From NCBI RefSeq assembly GCF_022483985.1, contig NZ_JAKVME010000001.1, positions 1,488,001-1,552,000 on the forward strand: a stretch of 64,000 bases of DNA, read 5' to 3'. The stretch comes from Acetobacter sp. GTDB taxonomy: Bacteria > Pseudomonadota > Alphaproteobacteria > Acetobacterales > Acetobacteraceae. The translations under genes and the position numbers were made by a program. The notes beneath the pieces were generated by a model, which saw only the letters and a list, made by a program, of their open reading frames with translations, searched no databases and was not told the DNA's origin. Shown here piece after piece: positions 7,265 to 41,310 of this stretch (position 1 is its first letter; the number at the start of each line of letters is the position of its first letter).

Positions 7265-8020
7265 ATGGACTCATTCGCTCCCATGCCCCTTATCGGGGTG
7301 ACACTCGATCAGGAACCAGGCGGCGCCGGACAGTATTCCGCGTTCCCTTGGTACGCCCTGCGGGCAAACTATATGGGCGCCGTCATCAAGGCTGGCGGGC
7401 TGCCTGTAGCGCTTCCCTACGCGCCCTGCCTGACTGGCAGGATTCTCGACCGTCTGGACGGGCTGATCGTCACCGGCGGCGCGTTTGACATCGACCCCGC
7501 GCTCTACGGCGAAGAGCGCAGTGAAGCCACGACCACGCTGAAACCCGGCCGCACCGCAGCGGAGATGGCGCTGCTGGAAGCCGCCATGGAGCGCGGCATG
7601 CCGGTGCTCGGTATCTGCGGCGGCATGCAGCTTCTCGCCGCAGCGCTGGATGGCTCGCTGATTCAGGACATTGCAAGCGAAAAGCCCGATGCCCTCCCCC
7701 ATGAACAGCCGAATCCACGCGATCAGGCCGGACACATCATCACCATCGAGCCTTATTCTCTACTCGGTACAATTGTCGGGCGTGGCACGATGGCGGTGAA
7801 TTCCTCGCACCATCAGGCCGTCCGTGATCCGGGTCGTGGCCGGGTGTCCGCACGGGCGGAAGATGGCATCATCGAAGCGATTGAAGACCCTTCGGCGCGG
7901 TTCTGTGTCGGGGTGCAATGGCATCCGGAATTTCTTATCGATCCGGGAGATCTCGCGTTATTCACGGCTTTTGTCGAAGCCGCGCAGAACGCAACAGTGT
8001 CGGGAGACGGTGTATGGTAG
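7265..8020 (+). CDS. Class I glutamine amidotransferase-like hydrolase, peptidase C26 (PuuD-like)
   Basis: A 251-aa gamma-glutamyl-gamma-aminobutyrate hydrolase-type protein. The catalytic triad of the class I amidotransferase fold is visible: nucleophile Cys118 in GICGGMQ, and His220 and Glu222 in VQWHPEF. Family members release gamma-linked glutamate from compounds such as gamma-Glu-GABA (putrescine breakdown) or act on related gamma-glutamyl substrates. No other puu genes are near, so the substrate is open. It heads a four-gene run (this gene, rluB, rsmD, yigZ) with start/stop overlaps. Confidence 0.88.
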   Translation: MDSFAPMPLIGVTLDQEPGGAGQYSAFPWYALRANYMGAVIKAGGLPVALPYAPCLTGRILDRLDGLIVTGGAFDIDPALYGEERSEATTTLKPGRTAAEMALLEAAMERGMPVLGICGGMQLLAAALDGSLIQDIASEKPDALPHEQPNPRDQAGHIITIEPYSLLGTIVGRGTMAVNSSHHQAVRDPGRGRVSARAEDGIIEAIEDPSARFCVGVQWHPEFLIDPGDLALFTAFVEAAQNATVSGDGVW

Positions 8021-8790
8021 ACGACAGCAACGAAAACACGACAGACGCACGCGGCGATCGTATCGCGAAATGGCTCGCCCGCAGTGGTGTCGCCAGCCGC
8101 CGCGATATCGAACGGATGATCACAGAACGCCGCATCAAACTGAACGGCGCCGTGGTCGAACATCCGGCAACCTTCGTAACCGCGACCGATGCCGTTTCCG
8201 TTGACGGCAACCTCGTGCAGGGTCCGGAGCACACCCGCCTCTGGCGCTATCACAAGCCCGACGGACTGGTGACGACGCACCGTGACCCGGAAGGTCGCCC
8301 GACAGTCTTCGAAAAACTGCCCGAAGGCATGCCGCGCGTCGTCAGCGTCGGGCGATTGGACCTGAACAGTGAAGGTCTGTTGCTGCTGACCAATGACGGC
8401 GCACTGGCCCGTCGTCTGGAACTGCCTTCCAACGGCTGGCTACGACGCTACCGTGTGCGTGTGTTCGGCGTGGTCAACGAGCGGGAACTTGCCGGACTGG
8501 CAAAGGGCTGCGTCATCGAGGGTGTGAAATACGGTCCCATCGAAGCCTCGCTCGACTCCCGCAAAGGCGACAATGCGTGGCTGACCGTCTCCCTGCGGGA
8601 AGGCAAGAACCGTGAAATCCGCCGTGTCATGACGGCTCTGAACCTGCATGTCAGCCGCCTGCTCCGCACGTCCTACGGCCCGTTCCCTCTCGGGGAACTC
8701 AAGCCAGGAGAACTGGAAGAAGTGCCCGGACGGGTCATGAAGACGCAGATTCCACGCGACGTGGAGATCGACACCAAGCGACGCCGCTGA
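8014..8790 (+). CDS. rluB: 23S rRNA pseudouridine synthase, RluB/RsuA family
   Basis: A 258-aa pseudouridine synthase. An N-terminal S4 RNA-binding domain (about 15-62: RIAKWLARSGVASRRDIERM) is followed by the catalytic domain with Asp116 in GRLDLNSEGLLLLTNDG. The ending GKNREIRRVM is typical of the RsuA/RluB/E/F group; RluB (U2605 of 23S rRNA) is the likeliest member, but RluE or RluF cannot be excluded. The start is ATG 8014, overlapping the stop of the upstream hydrolase (TGTATGGTAG), which implies translational coupling. The stop overlaps the ATG of rsmD. Confidence 0.9.
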   Translation: MVDDSNENTTDARGDRIAKWLARSGVASRRDIERMITERRIKLNGAVVEHPATFVTATDAVSVDGNLVQGPEHTRLWRYHKPDGLVTTHRDPEGRPTVFEKLPEGMPRVVSVGRLDLNSEGLLLLTNDGALARRLELPSNGWLRRYRVRVFGVVNERELAGLAKGCVIEGVKYGPIEASLDSRKGDNAWLTVSLREGKNREIRRVMTALNLHVSRLLRTSYGPFPLGELKPGELEEVPGRVMKTQIPRDVEIDTKRRR

Positions 8791-9344
8791 TGCGGATTAT
8801 CGCCGGGATACGACGCGGACGAACGCTGACGGCTCCGGAAGGCAAGGCCACCCGCCCCACCGCTGACCGCGTGAGACAGGCGCTGTTCGACATGCTCCTT
8901 CATGCGCCGTGGGGAGGCCGGGAGTGTGTCGAGGGCGTCCATGTGCTGGACGGTTTTGCCGGAACAGGAGCGCTCGGGCTGGAGGCGCTGTCACGCGGCG
9001 GCGCATTCTGTACGTTCTTCGAGACAGACCGCCCGGCCCTGACAGCACTTAGGACAAACGTACACGACTGTCAGATGCAGGACATGAGCCGCGTTCTGGC
9101 TTCGACCGTTCTCAAGCCGCCGCGCGCCTCGACACCCTGTGGACTGGTGTTTCTCGACCCGCCCTACGGCCAGTCCCTACCCGCGCAGGCGCTCGCCGCC
9201 CTTACCTCTGCTGGCTGGATTGCCCCCGGTGCTCTGATCGTCACTGAAACCGGGCGCGACGAGCCGGTGCCTGTCGAGGGAGCGGAGATTCTGGCCGAGC
9301 GGGCTCATGGCGCAGCCCGCCTGTGGGTGTGGCGACAGGGCTGA
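8790..9344 (+). CDS. rsmD: 16S rRNA (guanine966-N2)-methyltransferase RsmD
   Basis: A 184-aa SAM-dependent methyltransferase. The opening MRIIAGIRRGRTL is diagnostic for RsmD, TRPTADRVRQALFDML follows, the SAM-binding loop LDGFAGTGALG lies at 53-63 and the catalytic DPPY at 123-126. It methylates G966 in 16S rRNA during 30S assembly. It starts one base before the end of rluB's stop (overlap TGATG), which in alphaproteobacteria is a common rRNA-modification pairing. Confidence 0.95.
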   Translation: MRIIAGIRRGRTLTAPEGKATRPTADRVRQALFDMLLHAPWGGRECVEGVHVLDGFAGTGALGLEALSRGGAFCTFFETDRPALTALRTNVHDCQMQDMSRVLASTVLKPPRASTPCGLVFLDPPYGQSLPAQALAALTSAGWIAPGALIVTETGRDEPVPVEGAEILAERAHGAARLWVWRQG

Positions 9345-14977: not shown

Positions 14978-15095
14978 TGTGGTTGGCTCGTGACTGTCTG
15001 CGTTGCCACGAGCAAAAGGTCGTCCACGCTTTCACGCAGCCTTGCCAACCTGTCAGATCACCCCGTCCGACACGCCTCGTCCGCAACATCCGGTA

Positions 15096-15300
15096 TGATG
15101 GCAGGTCTCCTGACTCGCGGCGTGTGACAGGACTGTCCTCCCTTCCCGGAGATGGAACGCTCCAGTGGGCCGGCATGACACCGGACGAACATCCTGACCG
15201 CTTACAGTTGCGGGGGCAGTCCGGGCATAGGCGATCAACCACCGCACCCGGTTCCCTTTTCATCCCTCGGACACGGTCTGAACGCGTCTTGTGGGAACCA
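15096..15300 (-). promoter_or_regulatory. Cobalamin (AdoCbl-type) riboswitch upstream of btuB
   Basis: On the minus strand the conserved blocks appear in order: a 5' arm with GGGAACCGGGTGCGG, the CCCCCGCAACTGTAAGCGG core, the B12-box region CCCACTGG, then CCGGGAAGGGAGGACAG, and the 3' GAGTCAGGAGACCTGCC. This is the standard cobalamin riboswitch layout. It ends about 118 bases before the receptor start, so high intracellular cobalamin should shut down receptor synthesis. Confidence 0.93.
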
Positions 15301-15398
15301 TCATGAGGATGTGATTACAGGCAGGTTAAAGTGAGTCAATCACACCTGAGAGATCAGGACACAGACTGTGGCATACACGCCACAATGTCGGTTTAAGA

Positions 15399-34508: not shown

Positions 34509-36209
34509 ATGTTAAAATCTTGGCCCGGTGGCTGGGCGGATGCGAAAGCAACACTGGCAGCGCTCCGACAGTCATTTGCGGTCATCGAGTTTGACACCCG
34601 GGGCATTATCCTAAGCGCGAACGAAAATTTCTGTCACGCAATGGGGTATAAATCCGAGGAACTCATCGGTCGGCATCACAGTATTTTTGCCGAACCGGAT
34701 TACGCCAGCAGTCCGGAATATCGTGCTTTCTGGGAGAAGCTGGCCAGTGGCGAATGCGTGACTGGTGAGTGTGTGCGTATCGGAAAAGATGGCAATGAGG
34801 TCTGGTTGCAGGCGTCCTACTCCCCTGTGCGTGACGTCTCCGGCAACGTGTACAAGATCGTAAAGCTTGCATCCGTCATTACCGGCTCCGTTATGGAAGC
34901 AACCGATTCCAAAGGAAAGCTGGAGGCGCTTTCCCGTGTGCAGGCCGTTATCGAATTTCTGCCTGATGGCACGATCATGACGGCCAATAAAAATTTTCTG
35001 AAAACTGTCGCTTACGATCTTCAGGAAATACAAGGACGTCATCACAGCATGTTTGTTGAAACGAGTGTCGCGAAGACATCCGAATATGCCGCTTTCTGGG
35101 ACAAGCTGCGAGCCGGTGAATTTGTGTCTTCCGAGTGCAAGCGGATCGGCAAGAATGGCAAGGAAATCTGGTTGCAGACCTCCTACAATCCGATTTTTGA
35201 CCGGAAAGGCCGTATTATCAAGGTCGTCAAGTTCGCCACCGACATTACCCGACGCGTACAGGCCATCAATGAAATCGAGCATGGCCTGAAGAAGCTGGCC
35301 AGCAATACACTCAATTACCGCCTCACCACACCAATCGACAGCACTTACGAAGGTCTCCGGCACGACTTCAACAAGGCCATCCAGAACCTCGATCAGACCA
35401 TTGGCGCCATTTCCTCTTCGGTCACGACAGTTGGCCGGGGAGCTGACGAGATTACCACAGCCTCGGTCGATCTGGCCCAGCGCACGGAAACGCAGGCTGT
35501 CAGTCTGGAAGAAACAGCCTCCCGTCTCAACCAGCTTACAAATGCCGTGACCCGGAGCGCTGACGGCGCCAAGGATGCGTCCACCCTTGCATCCAACGTC
35601 CGCACCAATGCCGCCAGATCCGGCGAGGTTGTGAACAACGCTGTCAAGGCCATGGAGCAGATCAGAAACACTTCACAGTCAATTTCGCAGATTGTCGGCA
35701 TGATTGATGAAATTGCCTTTCTGACCAACATGCTGTCGCTGAATGCCGCTGTTGAGGCAGCACGTGCGGGTGAGGCTGGAGTGGGTTTCTCCGTGGTCGC
35801 TTCCGAAGTCCGTCAGCTCGCGAAACGCTCCGCCGACGCTTCAAAACAGATCAGGGACTTGATTTCCAGTTCCGACATTCAGGTTCAGCGGGGTGTTGAA
35901 ATGGTGGGAACCGCTGGCAAAGCCCTGCAGTCCATCATGGCCGAGATGTTCCATATGGATAATCTGATGTCTGACATCGCCACAGGCGCCCAGGAACAGG
36001 CACAGGGGTTGGCACAGATCAATGAGTCTGTGAGCAAGCTTGACCACATGACCCAGAAGAATGCGGCGATGGCAACGCAAAGCACAAAAGCCGCAAACGC
36101 TCTGGACGGTCAGGCAAAACGACTTGAGAGACTTACTGGAAATTTCAAAATCACTTCATCCGGTGAAACTTTAGCACAGATATTTACGCCTGAACTGTGT
36201 GGTGTTTAG
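34509..36209 (+). CDS. Cytoplasmic methyl-accepting chemotaxis protein with two PAS domains
   Basis: A 566-aa chemoreceptor with no transmembrane segments. Two tandem PAS domains (about 18-125 and 138-247) are close relatives of each other ([25 protein letters not shown] and [24 protein letters not shown], both with GRHHS and [16 protein letters not shown]). A linker helix and a HAMP-like stretch (about 248-310) lead to the signalling domain (about 330-540) with the hairpin tip [31 protein letters not shown] in parts. No CheR-docking pentapeptide end is seen. Such soluble receptors usually sense redox, oxygen or small metabolites inside the cell. AAGGAC is the ribosome binding site. No che genes adjoin. 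Confidence 0.92.
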
Positions 36210-36548
36210 GACGCCACTTAATCTATCTGCAAGGCAATCGGTATCCCTGTCATTATGCAGACGCTACTGGATTGCCCTTATTAATAAATAAAAATAGAAA
36301 TATGTACTTTTATAAAAAATTAATCTATAATTACAAATAAAATACCATTTAAAATAATTATAATTCAATTTAATTTTTATATAATTGAATTTATATTCAA
36401 ATCAAAAAATTTTTTCAAAAAACCTCGACGATGAATCGTCACTCCCCATAGATCATATCTATGAAAAATATTGACCATTTATACGTTACGATTCCATTAT
36501 GATATGTGAAAAAACAGTCGTCGGTGGTGTTTAGATAAGAGGCCCCAG
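36210..36548. other. Strongly AT-rich intergenic island with a hairpin
   Basis: The 339-base gap has a block at about 36280-36420 that is nearly all A and T, unlike the GC-rich chromosome around it. At its left end a stem GGCAATC / GATTGCC (36233-36239 and 36270-36276) is probably the chemoreceptor transcript end. The AT block could be a promoter region or nucleoid-protein binding site, or scar DNA of a transfer event. No protein-like frame is present. Confidence 0.5.
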
Positions 36549-37349
36549 ATGGATTGCCTGGAAATCACCAGATCAAAAATCGATATCGCCAGTCTTGTCG
36601 GATTATGGACACGTAGTCTTATTGAGTGGGCCGATGGCAGCCGTGATGAAAGCACCAAAGTCTTCTGGTTGCAGGGGAAGAACCATTTTATCGATCTTCG
36701 CCAGCCCGCGTCTCTGCCTCTTTTCCCGAACAAAAAATGCCGTGACGATCTGACGCATCAGGACTGTCTCGCTTTGTCCCGACAGGAAGGTTTTGCGGGA
36801 CATCTTCGAACGAACGGTGCCGCATACGAATGGGTTCGGCTGATCGACTATCAACCCGCCCAAAGTCTGGCTGATGCGGGGTTTCTCCATTGGCAGAACA
36901 ATATACTGGTAGAGACAGGAAGAGATCTGCCCTACACGGAGCACTGGCACCGTGAAAAAGGGTTTACCTCATCAATTCCGCTGAACTTTCAACTCGTGGA
37001 TAAGACCAACGGTTGCAGGGCGGCTTTTATCATGGTCGGACGCGATTTCATGTTCGCCAGAGATCGAAGCGTTTCTCTTCCCGCAGACATGACATTACAC
37101 CAAGCGGTCAGTCAGGCCTCGAACGAAAAGATCGCCCGCCAATTGATTGATTGTGAAATCTCATTTGGCAAAATCGCCGAGGCTGGTGGTCCACTCGTCA
37201 TCCACAATTCAACTCTACCGTGGAAAACAGGTTCATTATTCCAGTTTGATCTGTCGGGAGAAAACATCGTCACGATAGCCGATATCGCGTCCAATGGGAA
37301 AAACATAACACACAGATGGCATCGGATATCCACGGAAGGGAGCGAGTGA
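36549..37349 (+). CDS. Unrecognised protein, first gene of the 36.5-40.5 kb cluster
   Basis: A 266-aa soluble protein without signal peptide or membrane segment. Notable parts are IASLVGLWTRSLIEWADGSRDE, VFWLQGKNHFIDLRQPASLP, LALSRQEGFAGHLRTNGAAYEW, VETGRDLPYTEHWHRE and the beta-rich C-terminus. The repeated Trp and alternating strands suggest a beta-barrel (lipocalin-like or HRI1-like) fold, but I do not recognise the family for certain. The stop overlaps the start of the next gene (GTGATGG), so it is co-translated with the oxygenase, whose reading frame is broken. Codon use and GC are lower than the window average. Confidence 0.7.
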   Translation: MDCLEITRSKIDIASLVGLWTRSLIEWADGSRDESTKVFWLQGKNHFIDLRQPASLPLFPNKKCRDDLTHQDCLALSRQEGFAGHLRTNGAAYEWVRLIDYQPAQSLADAGFLHWQNNILVETGRDLPYTEHWHREKGFTSSIPLNFQLVDKTNGCRAAFIMVGRDFMFARDRSVSLPADMTLHQAVSQASNEKIARQLIDCEISFGKIAEAGGPLVIHNSTLPWKTGSLFQFDLSGENIVTIADIASNGKNITHRWHRISTEGSE

Positions 37350-38374
37350 TGGACAGTCATTTCACGACAATACCTGTCATTGATATGTCAGGGTTGAACG
37401 GCACGACCGAACAGAAGCTGACTGTCGTTGAAAACCTCGCCCATGCGGCAAGGCATGTCGGCTTCATGTACATCACGGGTCACGGCATGGAGCCTTCGCT
37501 ATTCTCCAATATGCTGAACGAAGCAAAAACCTTTTTCGATCTACCCATTGAAGAAAAAATGGCCCTTTATATTGGCTAATCCTCCAATCATCGCGGCTAC
37601 GTGCCACATGGCGAAGAAGTTTTCTCAGGCGGCAGTAAAGACCTCAAGGAAGCCTTCGATCTGTCACTGGATCTGCCTTCCGACGACCCTGACTACCTTG
37701 CCGGCAATCCCCTCCTTGGCCCCAACCAGTGGCCGCCCATTCCGCAGTTCCGTGAAATAATAACTTCTTATTACAACAGTGTTTTTAATGTAGGTCGTCG
37801 TCTGATATCAGCATTTGCCCTGGCTCTGGGATTGGACGCTGATGCGTTTGAAGCCAGCCTGACCAGACCGCCCAGCCAGTTGCGACTGATCCATTATCCT
37901 TATGATCCGACAGCACACGATGTAGCGGGCATCGGCGCGCATACTGACTTCGAATGTTTCACATTGCTGCGTGCAACGGCGCCCGGTCTGGAAGTCATGA
38001 ACGGTCAGGGACAGTGGATTGATGCTCCTCCGATCGAAAACGCCTTCATCGTTAATATTGGTGATATGCTAGAACTTCTCAGCGGAGGGGAGTTTATCGC
38101 CACATCACATCGGGTAAGAAAAGTAAAAAAGGAACGCTATTCGTTCCCCTTATTTTTCTCTCTGGACTATAATACACGAGTACAGCCGCTGCCCGGTCGG
38201 GAGAACCCCGCTCTCCCGACACAGAGCCTTCTGGCCGGGGAGCATCTTTTTGCGCAGACAGCCCAGATATTTACCTATCTGAAACAACGTCTTGCAGATG
38301 GAACCCTGATTCTGCCAGACTCTTCACTGGCGCTCTCCTCCTTTGGTCAGGAATCACGGCATCTGAACGCGTAA
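37349..38374 (+). pseudogene. 2-oxoglutarate/Fe(II) (isopenicillin-N-synthase-like) oxygenase split by an in-frame TAA
   Basis: The N-terminal part (codons 1-76: TTIPVIDMSGLNGT, HAARHVGFMYITGHG) and the rest (from codon 78) are in the same frame, separated only by TAA at 37577-37579. Full length would be 341 codons, the normal family length. The iron ligands are intact: His198-x-Asp200 (AHTDFE) and His254 (ATSHRV), and the 2-oxoglutarate R-x-S lies at 263-265 (RYSFP). The stop sits in YIG-stop-SSNHRGYVPHGEE, just before the conserved HRGY. A single-base change is the simplest explanation; sequencing error or readthrough remain possible. A restart at ATG 37601 lacks a ribosome binding site. 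It starts by overlap with the preceding gene. Confidence 0.85.
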
Positions 38375-38430
38375 CGCCATAATAGTTTTTCGCTTTTCTG
38401 TCGGCGACAGTCTTTTCAAATCGGAACGGA

Positions 38431-39423
38431 ATGAAGGTGAAAACACAAAAGGTCGTCTCTCCCACAGAACAGACCCTCAAGGCCTTTATCCGTAAGGTTG
38501 ACTGGAATCTCTGTAGGGATTTTCTGGCTATTGTTGAATATGGAGGCATAGGCTCCGCTGCACGAGCAACAGGACGACAGCAGCCCAGTCTTAGCTCTTC
38601 TCTCAAGCGGTTTGAGAATCATATCGGTTTCACTCTCTGCACCCGATCAAGCCGAGGAATAGAACTGACACCATCCGGAAAGGCTGTTTTTGAACTGTGC
38701 CGGGAAATGGCCGGATGTGTCATGGCAATCCCCCAGCATGCGGCCGCCGCCGCCGGATGTATTGAGGGGACCCTGAGGCTCAGCATGCTCGCCGATCTTG
38801 GAATTCGCGCTGTTGATGACACCATCATCATGTTTCATGAAATATATCCATCCGTTTCCCTCCACATCGACGTTGCGCCCTGGCGTGACACAATTGAAGC
38901 TGTCGTAAGAGGGGATGCTGATATTGGCATAAGCTGCGACAATGCGCCCCGGGACACTCTCCGTTATGTGCTGATGGGATGCGAAAAGCAGCAGCTTTAT
39001 TGTCACGCTTCCTCCAGCATCTTTCAGGAGCTGCAATCGCTTCTTTCTGATCCCGGACAGTACAAACCTCAAGTTTTTTCGAAGTACAACTTCATTCTGA
39101 CCGGAAATGACGAGCCGCAGGAACTTTTTTCATTCCGGAAGCGCCATGGGCTGGGTCGCCATATCGGTGGGCAGGCTGACACGCTGAGCGAGGCGCGCCG
39201 GCTTATTCGCCTTGGTGTGGGAATCGGTTTTCTACCAACAGATTTCGCGGCCGGAGATGTCCAGACCGGACAACTTGTTCCGCTTCTGCCTGAGGAGATT
39301 CTTCCGCGTTATCCGATCTACATGATCACGCGCGCGGAGACCCCGGACGGCACTGCGGCATCCTTGATCGTGAATGTCATCATTTCAAGAACGGCAGGAA
39401 AGGAGATGCAGCAAAGCCCCTGA
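38431..39423 (+). CDS. LysR-family transcriptional regulator
   Basis: A 330-aa LysR regulator. The winged helix-turn-helix covers about 22-85 (WNLCRDFLAIVEYGGIGSAARATGRQQPSLSSSLKRFENHIG in parts) and the LysR substrate domain about 110-320. Unlike the classical opening, about 22 residues precede the DNA-binding domain; internal later starts would cut the helix, so ATG 38431 is retained. Most LysR proteins control neighbouring genes, here the oxygenase gene and the substrate-binding protein. It reads in the same direction rather than divergently. Confidence 0.9.
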   Translation: MKVKTQKVVSPTEQTLKAFIRKVDWNLCRDFLAIVEYGGIGSAARATGRQQPSLSSSLKRFENHIGFTLCTRSSRGIELTPSGKAVFELCREMAGCVMAIPQHAAAAAGCIEGTLRLSMLADLGIRAVDDTIIMFHEIYPSVSLHIDVAPWRDTIEAVVRGDADIGISCDNAPRDTLRYVLMGCEKQQLYCHASSSIFQELQSLLSDPGQYKPQVFSKYNFILTGNDEPQELFSFRKRHGLGRHIGGQADTLSEARRLIRLGVGIGFLPTDFAAGDVQTGQLVPLLPEEILPRYPIYMITRAETPDGTAASLIVNVIISRTAGKEMQQSP

Positions 39424-39490
39424 AACGCAGTTATCTGCTCGTGCCACCAACTCGTCATGCGACACCTTCATCCCCGAAAAAGGAACTCTC

Positions 39491-40468
39491 ATGAAGTTAG
39501 GATACGGACTTAAACGTCTTGCGCTGGCTCTCAGCCTATCACTGGCCACCCTCGGCTCGGCGCAGGCCGCTCCTCTACAGGTCGGTTTCAGTGACTGGCC
39601 CGGTTTTGTGGCCTGGCAGATCGCCATCGAGAAAAACTGGTTCAAGGAAGCTGGTATCGACGTCAATTTTCAATGGTTCGACTACAGCGCCTCGCTGGAT
39701 GCCTACGCGGCAGGAAAACTTGATGCCATAGCGGCAACAAATGGCGATGTTCTTGTCACGGGCTCATCCGGTCGGAAAAGCATCATCGTCATGGCTAATG
39801 ACTATTCTGACGGCAATGACATGATCATCGCAGTTCCGGGCATCTCATCCCTCTCCGAACTGAAGGGAAAGAAAATTGCCGTGGAAACCGGACTTGTCGA
39901 TCACCTCATGCTTCTGACGGCACTCAAGCAGGTCGGACTTTCGGAAAAGGACGTGACATTGGTCAACACAAAAACCAATGAAACACCGCAGGTTCTTGCT
40001 TCAGGTTCAGTCGCCGCCATTGCCGCCTGGCAACCTAGTTCAGGACAGGCGCTTCGGGAGGTTCCCGGCTCCAGACCACTCTTCACATCACGGGAAGCGC
40101 CAGGCCTTATCTACGACGTTCTGGCCGTCAGCCCGGAAAGTCTGAAAGAGCACAGAGAGGAATGGAAGCGGCTTATTTCAGTCTGGGACCGCGTGGTGGC
40201 CTACATCAGGGACCCGAAAACACGCGATGACGCCGTCGCCATCATGTCTGCCCGTGTGGGTCTTCCACCGGCAAGCTATACAAAACTTCTCAAAGGCACC
40301 CACCTGCTGACCATCGAAGGAAACCGTGAAATCTACAAAAGAACGGAGGGGCTATCCTCTCTTCTGGGTTCCACCCGCAATGCGGATGCATTCAACATCC
40401 GTTACGACGTTTACAAAACACCGCAGAATGTCCCGTCTTACCTTGATGCGAGCCTGATCCAGCCTTAA
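39491..40468 (+). CDS. ABC transporter substrate-binding protein, SsuA/TauA/NMT1-like (orphan)
   Basis: A 325-aa exported protein with a signal peptide (1-25, ending AQA). The domain is of the NitT/TauT-SsuA type: VGFSDWPGFVAWQIAIEKNWFKEAGIDVNF at the start in parts, YAAGKLDAIAATNGDVL, LKGKKIAVETGLVDHLMLL. Members bind nitrate, sulfonates, taurine, or pyrimidine-like thiamine precursors. A further characteristic is that no permease or ATPase gene lies alongside, so it must borrow a transporter or is a remnant. The start is ATG 39491, preceded by GGAAC; an in-frame ATG at 39374 lies within the LysR gene. Confidence 0.88.
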   Translation: MKLGYGLKRLALALSLSLATLGSAQAAPLQVGFSDWPGFVAWQIAIEKNWFKEAGIDVNFQWFDYSASLDAYAAGKLDAIAATNGDVLVTGSSGRKSIIVMANDYSDGNDMIIAVPGISSLSELKGKKIAVETGLVDHLMLLTALKQVGLSEKDVTLVNTKTNETPQVLASGSVAAIAAWQPSSGQALREVPGSRPLFTSREAPGLIYDVLAVSPESLKEHREEWKRLISVWDRVVAYIRDPKTRDDAVAIMSARVGLPPASYTKLLKGTHLLTIEGNREIYKRTEGLSSLLGSTRNADAFNIRYDVYKTPQNVPSYLDASLIQP

Positions 40469-40629: not shown

Positions 40630-41310
40630 ATGAATTCGAGCATTACCCTGACCGCCGCCGATGGTCATGAATTTTCCGCCTGGCAAGCCGGAGCGCAGGA
40701 TGCGCCTTATGCGCTGATCGTGGTGCAGGAAATTTTCGGCGTAAACAACAATATCCGAAATGTAGCGGACGAATTCGCCGCTGCTGGTTTCTCGGTGCTC
40801 GCACCCGCTGTTTTCGATCGCGCGCAACGCAACGTCGAGTTGGGATACAGCCCGGAAGACGTGCAGGAAGGGCTTCGTCTGCGGAACGAAATCCCGCTGG
40901 CCGATACGCTCGCCGACCTCCATGCCTGCGTGCAACACTTCAGGCATCACGCCCCCCGCCGCAAGATAGGCATCATCGGCTACTGCTGGGGCGGTACGCT
41001 GGCCTGGGACGCCGCGACCCATACGCACGATCTGGGAGCCGCTGTCAGCTGGTATGGTGGCGGCATTGCGGCTCACAAGGACGCCACACCTCACTGCCCC
41101 GTGCAACTGCATTTCGGTGTAGAAGACACCTCCATTCCGCATCAGGACGTAAAAATCATCCGTGAGACGCATCCCGAAGTCGAGCTATACGTTTATGACG
41201 ATGCAGGACATGGTTTTGGAAACAGGGATCGTTCCAGCTTCAATGCCGACGCCAACCGTCTGGCATGGGAGCGCAGCGTCGAGTTCCTGAAAGCCAGCCT
41301 GCATACATGA
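40630..41310 (+). CDS. Dienelactone hydrolase family protein
   Basis: A 226-aa alpha/beta hydrolase. The nucleophile is Cys119 in GYCWGG, with the acid near FGVEDTS and the base His194 in GHGF, as in carboxymethylenebutenolidase. VVQEIFGVNNNIRNVADEFAAAGFSVLAPA in parts is family-typical. Related cytosolic enzymes act on various esters and lactones; no chlorocatechol genes adjoin, so the substrate is unknown. It is followed after 40 bases by a very small membrane gene. Confidence 0.9.
   Translation: MNSSITLTAADGHEFSAWQAGAQDAPYALIVVQEIFGVNNNIRNVADEFAAAGFSVLAPAVFDRAQRNVELGYSPEDVQEGLRLRNEIPLADTLADLHACVQHFRHHAPRRKIGIIGYCWGGTLAWDAATHTHDLGAAVSWYGGGIAAHKDATPHCPVQLHFGVEDTSIPHQDVKIIRETHPEVELYVYDDAGHGFGNRDRSSFNADANRLAWERSVEFLKASLHT

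Follow-up and report, generated by a model that had tools for sequence, protein, structure and literature searches.

A 64,000-nucleotide window of the 3.7-Mb genome of an Acetobacter strain (C1:1488001-1552000 of genome G000, an almost closed assembly of three contigs) carries a cluster of four genes at 36549-40468, all on the plus strand, which code for a 266-amino-acid (aa) protein, a 2-oxoglutarate- and Fe(II)-dependent (2OG-Fe(II)) oxygenase, a LysR-type transcriptional regulator, and an orphan substrate-binding protein (SBP). Homology and gene context indicate that the cluster is quite probably a methylguanidine demethylation operon, feeding guanidine assimilation that is encoded elsewhere in the genome.

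The cluster is preceded by an AT-rich region of 339 bp (36210-36548, 28% GC) that is conserved between species only in its last ∼110 bp, and the next gene after it codes for a dienelactone-hydrolase-family protein (40630-41310). A preliminary description of this DNA had reported four same-strand genes in this setting with a GC content below that of their surroundings, and both points hold, with 50 to 54% GC in the cluster genes and 58% for the window as a whole. The first gene (36549-37349) codes for the 266-aa protein, with residues D49 (36693-36695) and R51 (36699-36701) of particular interest as discussed below, and it shares a TGATG stop/start overlap (37347-37351) with the second, the oxygenase gene (37349-38374). 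The spacing of this overlap is identical in Acetobacter sicerae, the named same-genus relative used for comparison (83 to 93% protein identity across the cluster), and the two genes are likely to be translationally coupled. The LysR gene lies at 38431-39423, and the SBP, a protein of 325 aa with a signal peptide, is encoded at 39491-40468. The SBP reading frame opens at 39374, and its translation start is probably ATG 39491, which is conserved and is followed by the signal peptide; with this start the LysR and SBP genes do not overlap, and of the two overlapping starts described previously only that of the first two genes is retained.

The 266-aa protein and its oxygenase partner

The demethylation of methylguanidine was reported in 2025 from a single halophile, Vreelandella boliviensis, in which the oxygenase MgdH hydroxylates methylguanidine and also accepts dimethylguanidine, and MgdL, earlier a hypothetical protein, splits N-(hydroxymethyl)guanidine, for which its substrate range is narrow and for which its residues D49 and R51 are essential (PMC12508155). 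The four PCR primers of that study match genome G705 (locus L060) exactly, thus making the MgdH and MgdL sequences available for comparison, and the G705 locus shows the operon and riboswitches as published (PMC12508155). The 266-aa protein had been regarded as unrecognized and the cluster as unexplained, but the homology search proposed at that time, now run, finds homologues and groups the protein with the MgdL family. It matches MgdL by BLASTP (E = 1.5e-10) and, in a profile-profile alignment with hhalign, with 98.7% probability over 211 columns. D49 and R51 occupy the same positions in the window protein and in MgdL and are invariant in 21 homologues, MgdL included; they belong to a set of 12 invariant columns that also includes D33, E122, E131, and three tryptophans, and these invariant acidic and Trp residues agree with the published MgdL substrate model, in which Glu, Asp, and Trp hold the guanidine group (PMC12508155). 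The gene also stands beside an MgdH-type oxygenase gene, to which it is joined through the TGATG overlap, and its product is best described as a putative N-(hydroxymethyl)guanidine lyase.

Pfam returns only sub-threshold matches to the 266-aa protein, the best of which is HRI1 (PF16815; residues 20-134), and membership in that family was rejected because the score of 19.2 bits is below the gathering score of 27. The HRI1 profile weakly matches 8 of the 21 family members (best E = 2.1e-5), and a distant common origin of the MgdL family and fungal HRI1, whose function is unknown, is possible. Searches of the PDB with the 266-aa protein and with the family profile gave no convincing chain match, and an AlphaFold2 model, considered with respect to a beta-barrel fold enclosing the active site, was built from only three sequences and discarded (predicted local distance difference test score of 33).

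The oxygenase has DIOX_N and 2OG-FeII_Oxy domains and is 56.5% identical to MgdH over 338 aa (382 bits, E = 3e-137). Its best PDB match is chain 9ovh (225 bits), which is named an ethylene-forming enzyme, and ethylene-forming enzyme chains score about 62 to 83 bits. In an oxygenase tree, the window enzyme and MgdH fall within the same supported clade of 24, which also holds a subgroup without MgdL. The gene is not a single intact open reading frame, as an in-frame TAA (37577-37579) is present at codon 77, where relatives have a sense codon; the frame is intact in six relatives. The frame is open on both sides of the stop, and reading through it gives a normal 341-residue protein in which the 2OG-Fe(II) HxD...H motif is kept (HTD, the distal His, and Arg are conserved), whereas the product truncated at the stop has 76 residues and is without any iron ligand. 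The ratio of nonsynonymous to synonymous substitution rates (dN/dS) is 0.045 to 0.050 in this strain versus 0.039 to 0.045 among the intact relatives, and a single lesion with otherwise normal constraint indicates that the stop is either recent or a sequence error. The methylguanidine route is probably off in this strain and functional in sister species, and the suggestion that the cluster is decaying applies to the oxygenase only (a single stop, with dN/dS of about 0.05), the other three genes being intact.

It is possible, but the less probable state of affairs, that the oxygenase is functional after all, with the TAA being a sequencing error or with translation passing it or restarting at GTG 37601. 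The single lesion, the frame open on both sides, and a dN/dS like that of intact relatives all agree with this, but the base in question sits in an almost closed assembly, a restart product would be without its first 84 residues, and an independent frameshift in the same gene at locus L013 shows that loss occurs in the genus. The matter touches the state of this strain, not the pathway. At L013, which is from a fragmentary assembly of another Acetobacter, the frameshifted oxygenase is at 7426-8437 and a truncated SBP at 8483-8872, representing independent damage. The window strain also codes for a second oxygenase of the MgdH clade (C1:2094070-2095071; L075:9050-10081), about 52% identical, that adjoins genes for a sugar-isomerase-like protein, an aldolase-like protein, a TonB receptor, a LysR regulator, and an amino-acid ATP-binding cassette (ABC) system. 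It is not assumed to substitute for the broken enzyme, as it belongs to a well-supported subgroup found in this other gene context.

Several observations weigh against assigning the cluster to methylguanidine. The strain's oxygenase gene is interrupted, and the tree, in which the inner order of the clade is not settled, places its product no closer to MgdH than to the subgroup lacking MgdL, such that its designation as a putative methylguanidine hydroxylase rests on its pairing with the lyase. In BLAST, the 266-aa protein matches MgdL only modestly (31% over 108 aa). Some MgdL-family genes (L041, L042, and L047-L050) have no MgdH-type gene nearby, and the family may therefore not be limited to a single hemiaminal. 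An unlikely, although not negligible, alternative is that the same chemistry acts on another N-alkylated guanidino substrate, such as dimethylguanidine or a compound resembling creatine or guanidinoacetate, with guanidine and an aldehyde as products. MgdH itself accepts dimethylguanidine, and there are lyase relatives in riboswitch-linked clusters in which other proteins replace MgdH, as would be expected if the family takes several guanidine hemiaminals; however, the oxygenase in the window belongs to the MgdH type, and its pairing with the lyase mirrors that in V. boliviensis, whose MgdL has a narrow preference for N-(hydroxymethyl)guanidine. Among the clusters with other partners, neighbors at L042:5792-11769 and L047:9366-16905 include a fatty-acid-desaturase-family protein, short-chain dehydrogenases/reductases, and a creatininase-family hydrolase, with a metallo-beta-lactamase-fold protein additionally at L047, and a Guanidine-I riboswitch is present at the MgdL-family loci L047 and L048. 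Loci of the L042/L047 type perhaps represent a different route through a guanidine hemiaminal, for example one starting from creatinine, in which a hydroxylase of the desaturase type stands in for MgdH.

Guanidine assimilation and uptake

The same genome carries, 586 kb away, an operon (C1:2114216-2124491; L057:9217-19492, minus strand) coding for an SBP, a permease, an ATPase, UAAP1, UAAP2, a carboxylase, and an allophanate hydrolase, with profile scores that are all above cut-off (TIGR02712, 1,810 bits; TIGR03424, 328 bits; TIGR03425, 273 bits; TIGR02713, 770 bits). The carboxylase has the motif GAIDFTGD, with Asp, versus GAINFTGD, with Asn, in yeast urea carboxylase, at what is taken to be the specificity position, Asn1330 of the yeast enzyme. 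Asp at the specificity position denotes the guanidine type, and the guanidine carboxylase pathway is composed of Gca, CgdA/B, AtzF, and an ABC importer (PMC12186494). In the operon of this genome, UAAP1 and UAAP2 correspond to CgdA/B. The 266-aa family co-occurs with this pathway, being present in 14 of a sample of 398 genomes of the phylum, all 14 of which have the carboxylase compared with 46 of the 398 overall (p = 1e-14), and in 8 of 37 Acetobacter genomes, all 8 of which have it compared with 16 of the 37 (p = 3e-4), these p values being uncorrected for kinship among the genomes. A class III formaldehyde dehydrogenase is also encoded in the genome.

The orphan SBP shares 63% identity with the SBP encoded in the carboxylase operon. 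Its highest score is to TIGR03427, the urea/guanidine carboxylase-associated model, and its scores against SsuA and TauA do not reach the cut-offs of those models. Two binding proteins sharing one permease are known from other ABC systems, and together with the 63% identity this suggests that the orphan SBP plausibly serves the importer of the carboxylase operon, which is the likely identity of the distant transporter on which the cluster had been proposed to depend. A sulfonate or taurine pathway, with a TauD-like desulfonating oxygenase and a taurine- or sulfonate-binding SBP, is very improbable; the SBP does score on the SsuA and TauA models, but its better match to TIGR03427 and its kinship with the guanidine-operon SBP, together with the domain composition and MgdH identity of the oxygenase, relate both proteins to those of guanidine pathways, and the sulfur compound offered previously as an alternative substrate class is unsupported.

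Conservation and regulation of the cluster

A neighborhood survey, set beforehand as the test that could refute a common role for the four genes, shows that they do co-occur elsewhere. All or most of the cluster recurs in the eight Acetobacter genomes that have the 266-aa family, and two unrelated chromosomal sites are represented. At the first (five of the eight genomes), the order is lyase-oxygenase-LysR-SBP, in the vicinity of nusB-thiL at one end and of dienelactone hydrolase-ppk2 at the other; at the second (three genomes), the cluster lies between a glycosyltransferase gene and purF and is complete in one instance (lyase-oxygenase-SBP-LysR), lacks the SBP in another, and in the third has a frameshift in the oxygenase gene and a truncated SBP. 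The dienelactone hydrolase at 40630 is absent from the cluster at the second site and was rejected as a member. G337, an alphaproteobacterium of another family, has the arrangement LysR-lyase-SBP-SBP-oxygenase-oxygenase, and adjacent lyase-oxygenase pairs occur across many genera, the carboxylase operon frequently being next to them; in seven distant genomes the pair is within 20 kb of carboxylase-operon genes. Every gene of the cluster is under purifying selection.

The palindrome CATAGATCATATCTATG (CATAGAT-N3-ATCTATG; 36447-36463, plus strand) is located 85 bp before the first gene and is exactly conserved in all nine genomes with a LysR-linked cluster, spanning both Acetobacter sites and G337, whose lyase is only 40% identical to that in the window. 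The 3.7-Mb genome holds one exact copy, 100 shuffles of the window yield none, and the palindrome is absent from all other loci compared, including those linked to riboswitches. Palindromes of this T-N11-A type are typical of LysR sites, and 36447-36463 is a probable binding site for the LysR regulator. The AT-rich gap was rejected as a sign of foreign DNA, as its conserved part is promoter-proximal only and is accounted for by the operator-like site. This palindrome is absent upstream of the carboxylase operon, and shared control of that operon by the window LysR is therefore unsupported.

The V. boliviensis methylguanidine operon has Guanidine-I and -II riboswitches (PMC12508155), but a riboswitch search found guanidine riboswitches neither in the window nor at the carboxylase operon, and the genome as a whole has no Guanidine-I riboswitch. 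The LysR protein, a putative substrate sensor of the operon, may be a dedicated sensor of methylguanidine or its hydroxymethyl product that takes over from riboswitches and controls an independent demethylation module, which is equipped with its own SBP and plugs into the host guanidine importer, although the case for this more elaborate proposal is evenly balanced. That the cluster is a chance or relic set of unrelated genes without joint function is extremely improbable, since the lower GC content, one broken gene, and partial losses at L011 and L013 are set against the presence of the same genes in a second family as well as at two unrelated sites, the shared upstream palindrome, and purifying selection throughout.

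Two other features of the window are of note. A soluble methyl-accepting chemotaxis protein with a PAS-PAS organization is encoded directly upstream of the cluster (34509-36209), and at this position in relatives it is present, divergent, or absent. A cobalamin riboswitch (115 bits) is located at 15083-15317 on the minus strand.

Proposed pathway and comparison with known systems

In the proposed pathway, the periplasmic SBP would capture methylguanidine or a close N-methylguanidino compound and pass it to the permease and ATPase encoded by the distant carboxylase operon. Using Fe(II), O2, and 2-oxoglutarate, the oxygenase would hydroxylate the methyl group to give N-(hydroxymethyl)guanidine, which the 266-aa lyase would split into guanidine and formaldehyde. 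Ammonia and CO2 would then be formed from guanidine by the successive action of guanidine carboxylase, carboxyguanidine deiminase, and allophanate hydrolase, and the formaldehyde could go to the glutathione-dependent dehydrogenase. The LysR regulator would bind the palindrome and control the operon in response to the substrate, the role played by guanidine riboswitches in V. boliviensis, and in this strain the recent stop codon would disable the oxygenase. The capture and oxidation pathway for a small nitrogen compound in the preliminary description fits well with this scheme, with the compound now narrowed to methylguanidine or a close relative.

A search of a limited literature collection found no paper in which the words Acetobacter and methylguanidine occur together, and the main text of the V. 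boliviensis study mentions neither Acetobacter nor LysR (PMC12508155). The cluster would now place the methylguanidine demethylation pathway in acetic acid bacteria, in a modular form tied to a transcription factor rather than to riboswitches. The previously unrecognized 266-aa protein gains a testable function, and genomes with intact and broken copies are available for comparing growth on methylguanidine.

Among known systems, the 266-aa protein has only a weak profile likeness to fungal HRI1, scoring under the cut-off, and its family profile matches no solved structure. Ethylene-forming enzyme and other guanidine-releasing 2OG oxygenases belong to the same broad superfamily as the window oxygenase, which is far closer to MgdH. 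The Gca pathway (PMC12186494) is represented in the same genome by a complete operon with Asp at the carboxylase specificity position, but the window cluster holds none of its enzymes, only a paralogous SBP, and the Gca operon of this genome has no guanidine riboswitch. The closest parallel is the MgdH/MgdL system of V. boliviensis (PMC12508155), with which the cluster shares an oxygenase-lyase pair by homology, D49 and R51, and a carboxylase pathway in the genome. Unlike in that system, the Acetobacter pair lies 586 kb from the carboxylase operon in an operon of its own that includes an SBP; a LysR regulator with an operator-like palindrome takes the place of the Guanidine-I and -II riboswitches, the lyase gene precedes the oxygenase gene, and the latter is broken in this strain. 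The chemistry is already known, but the modular, LysR-linked form with its own SBP is new.

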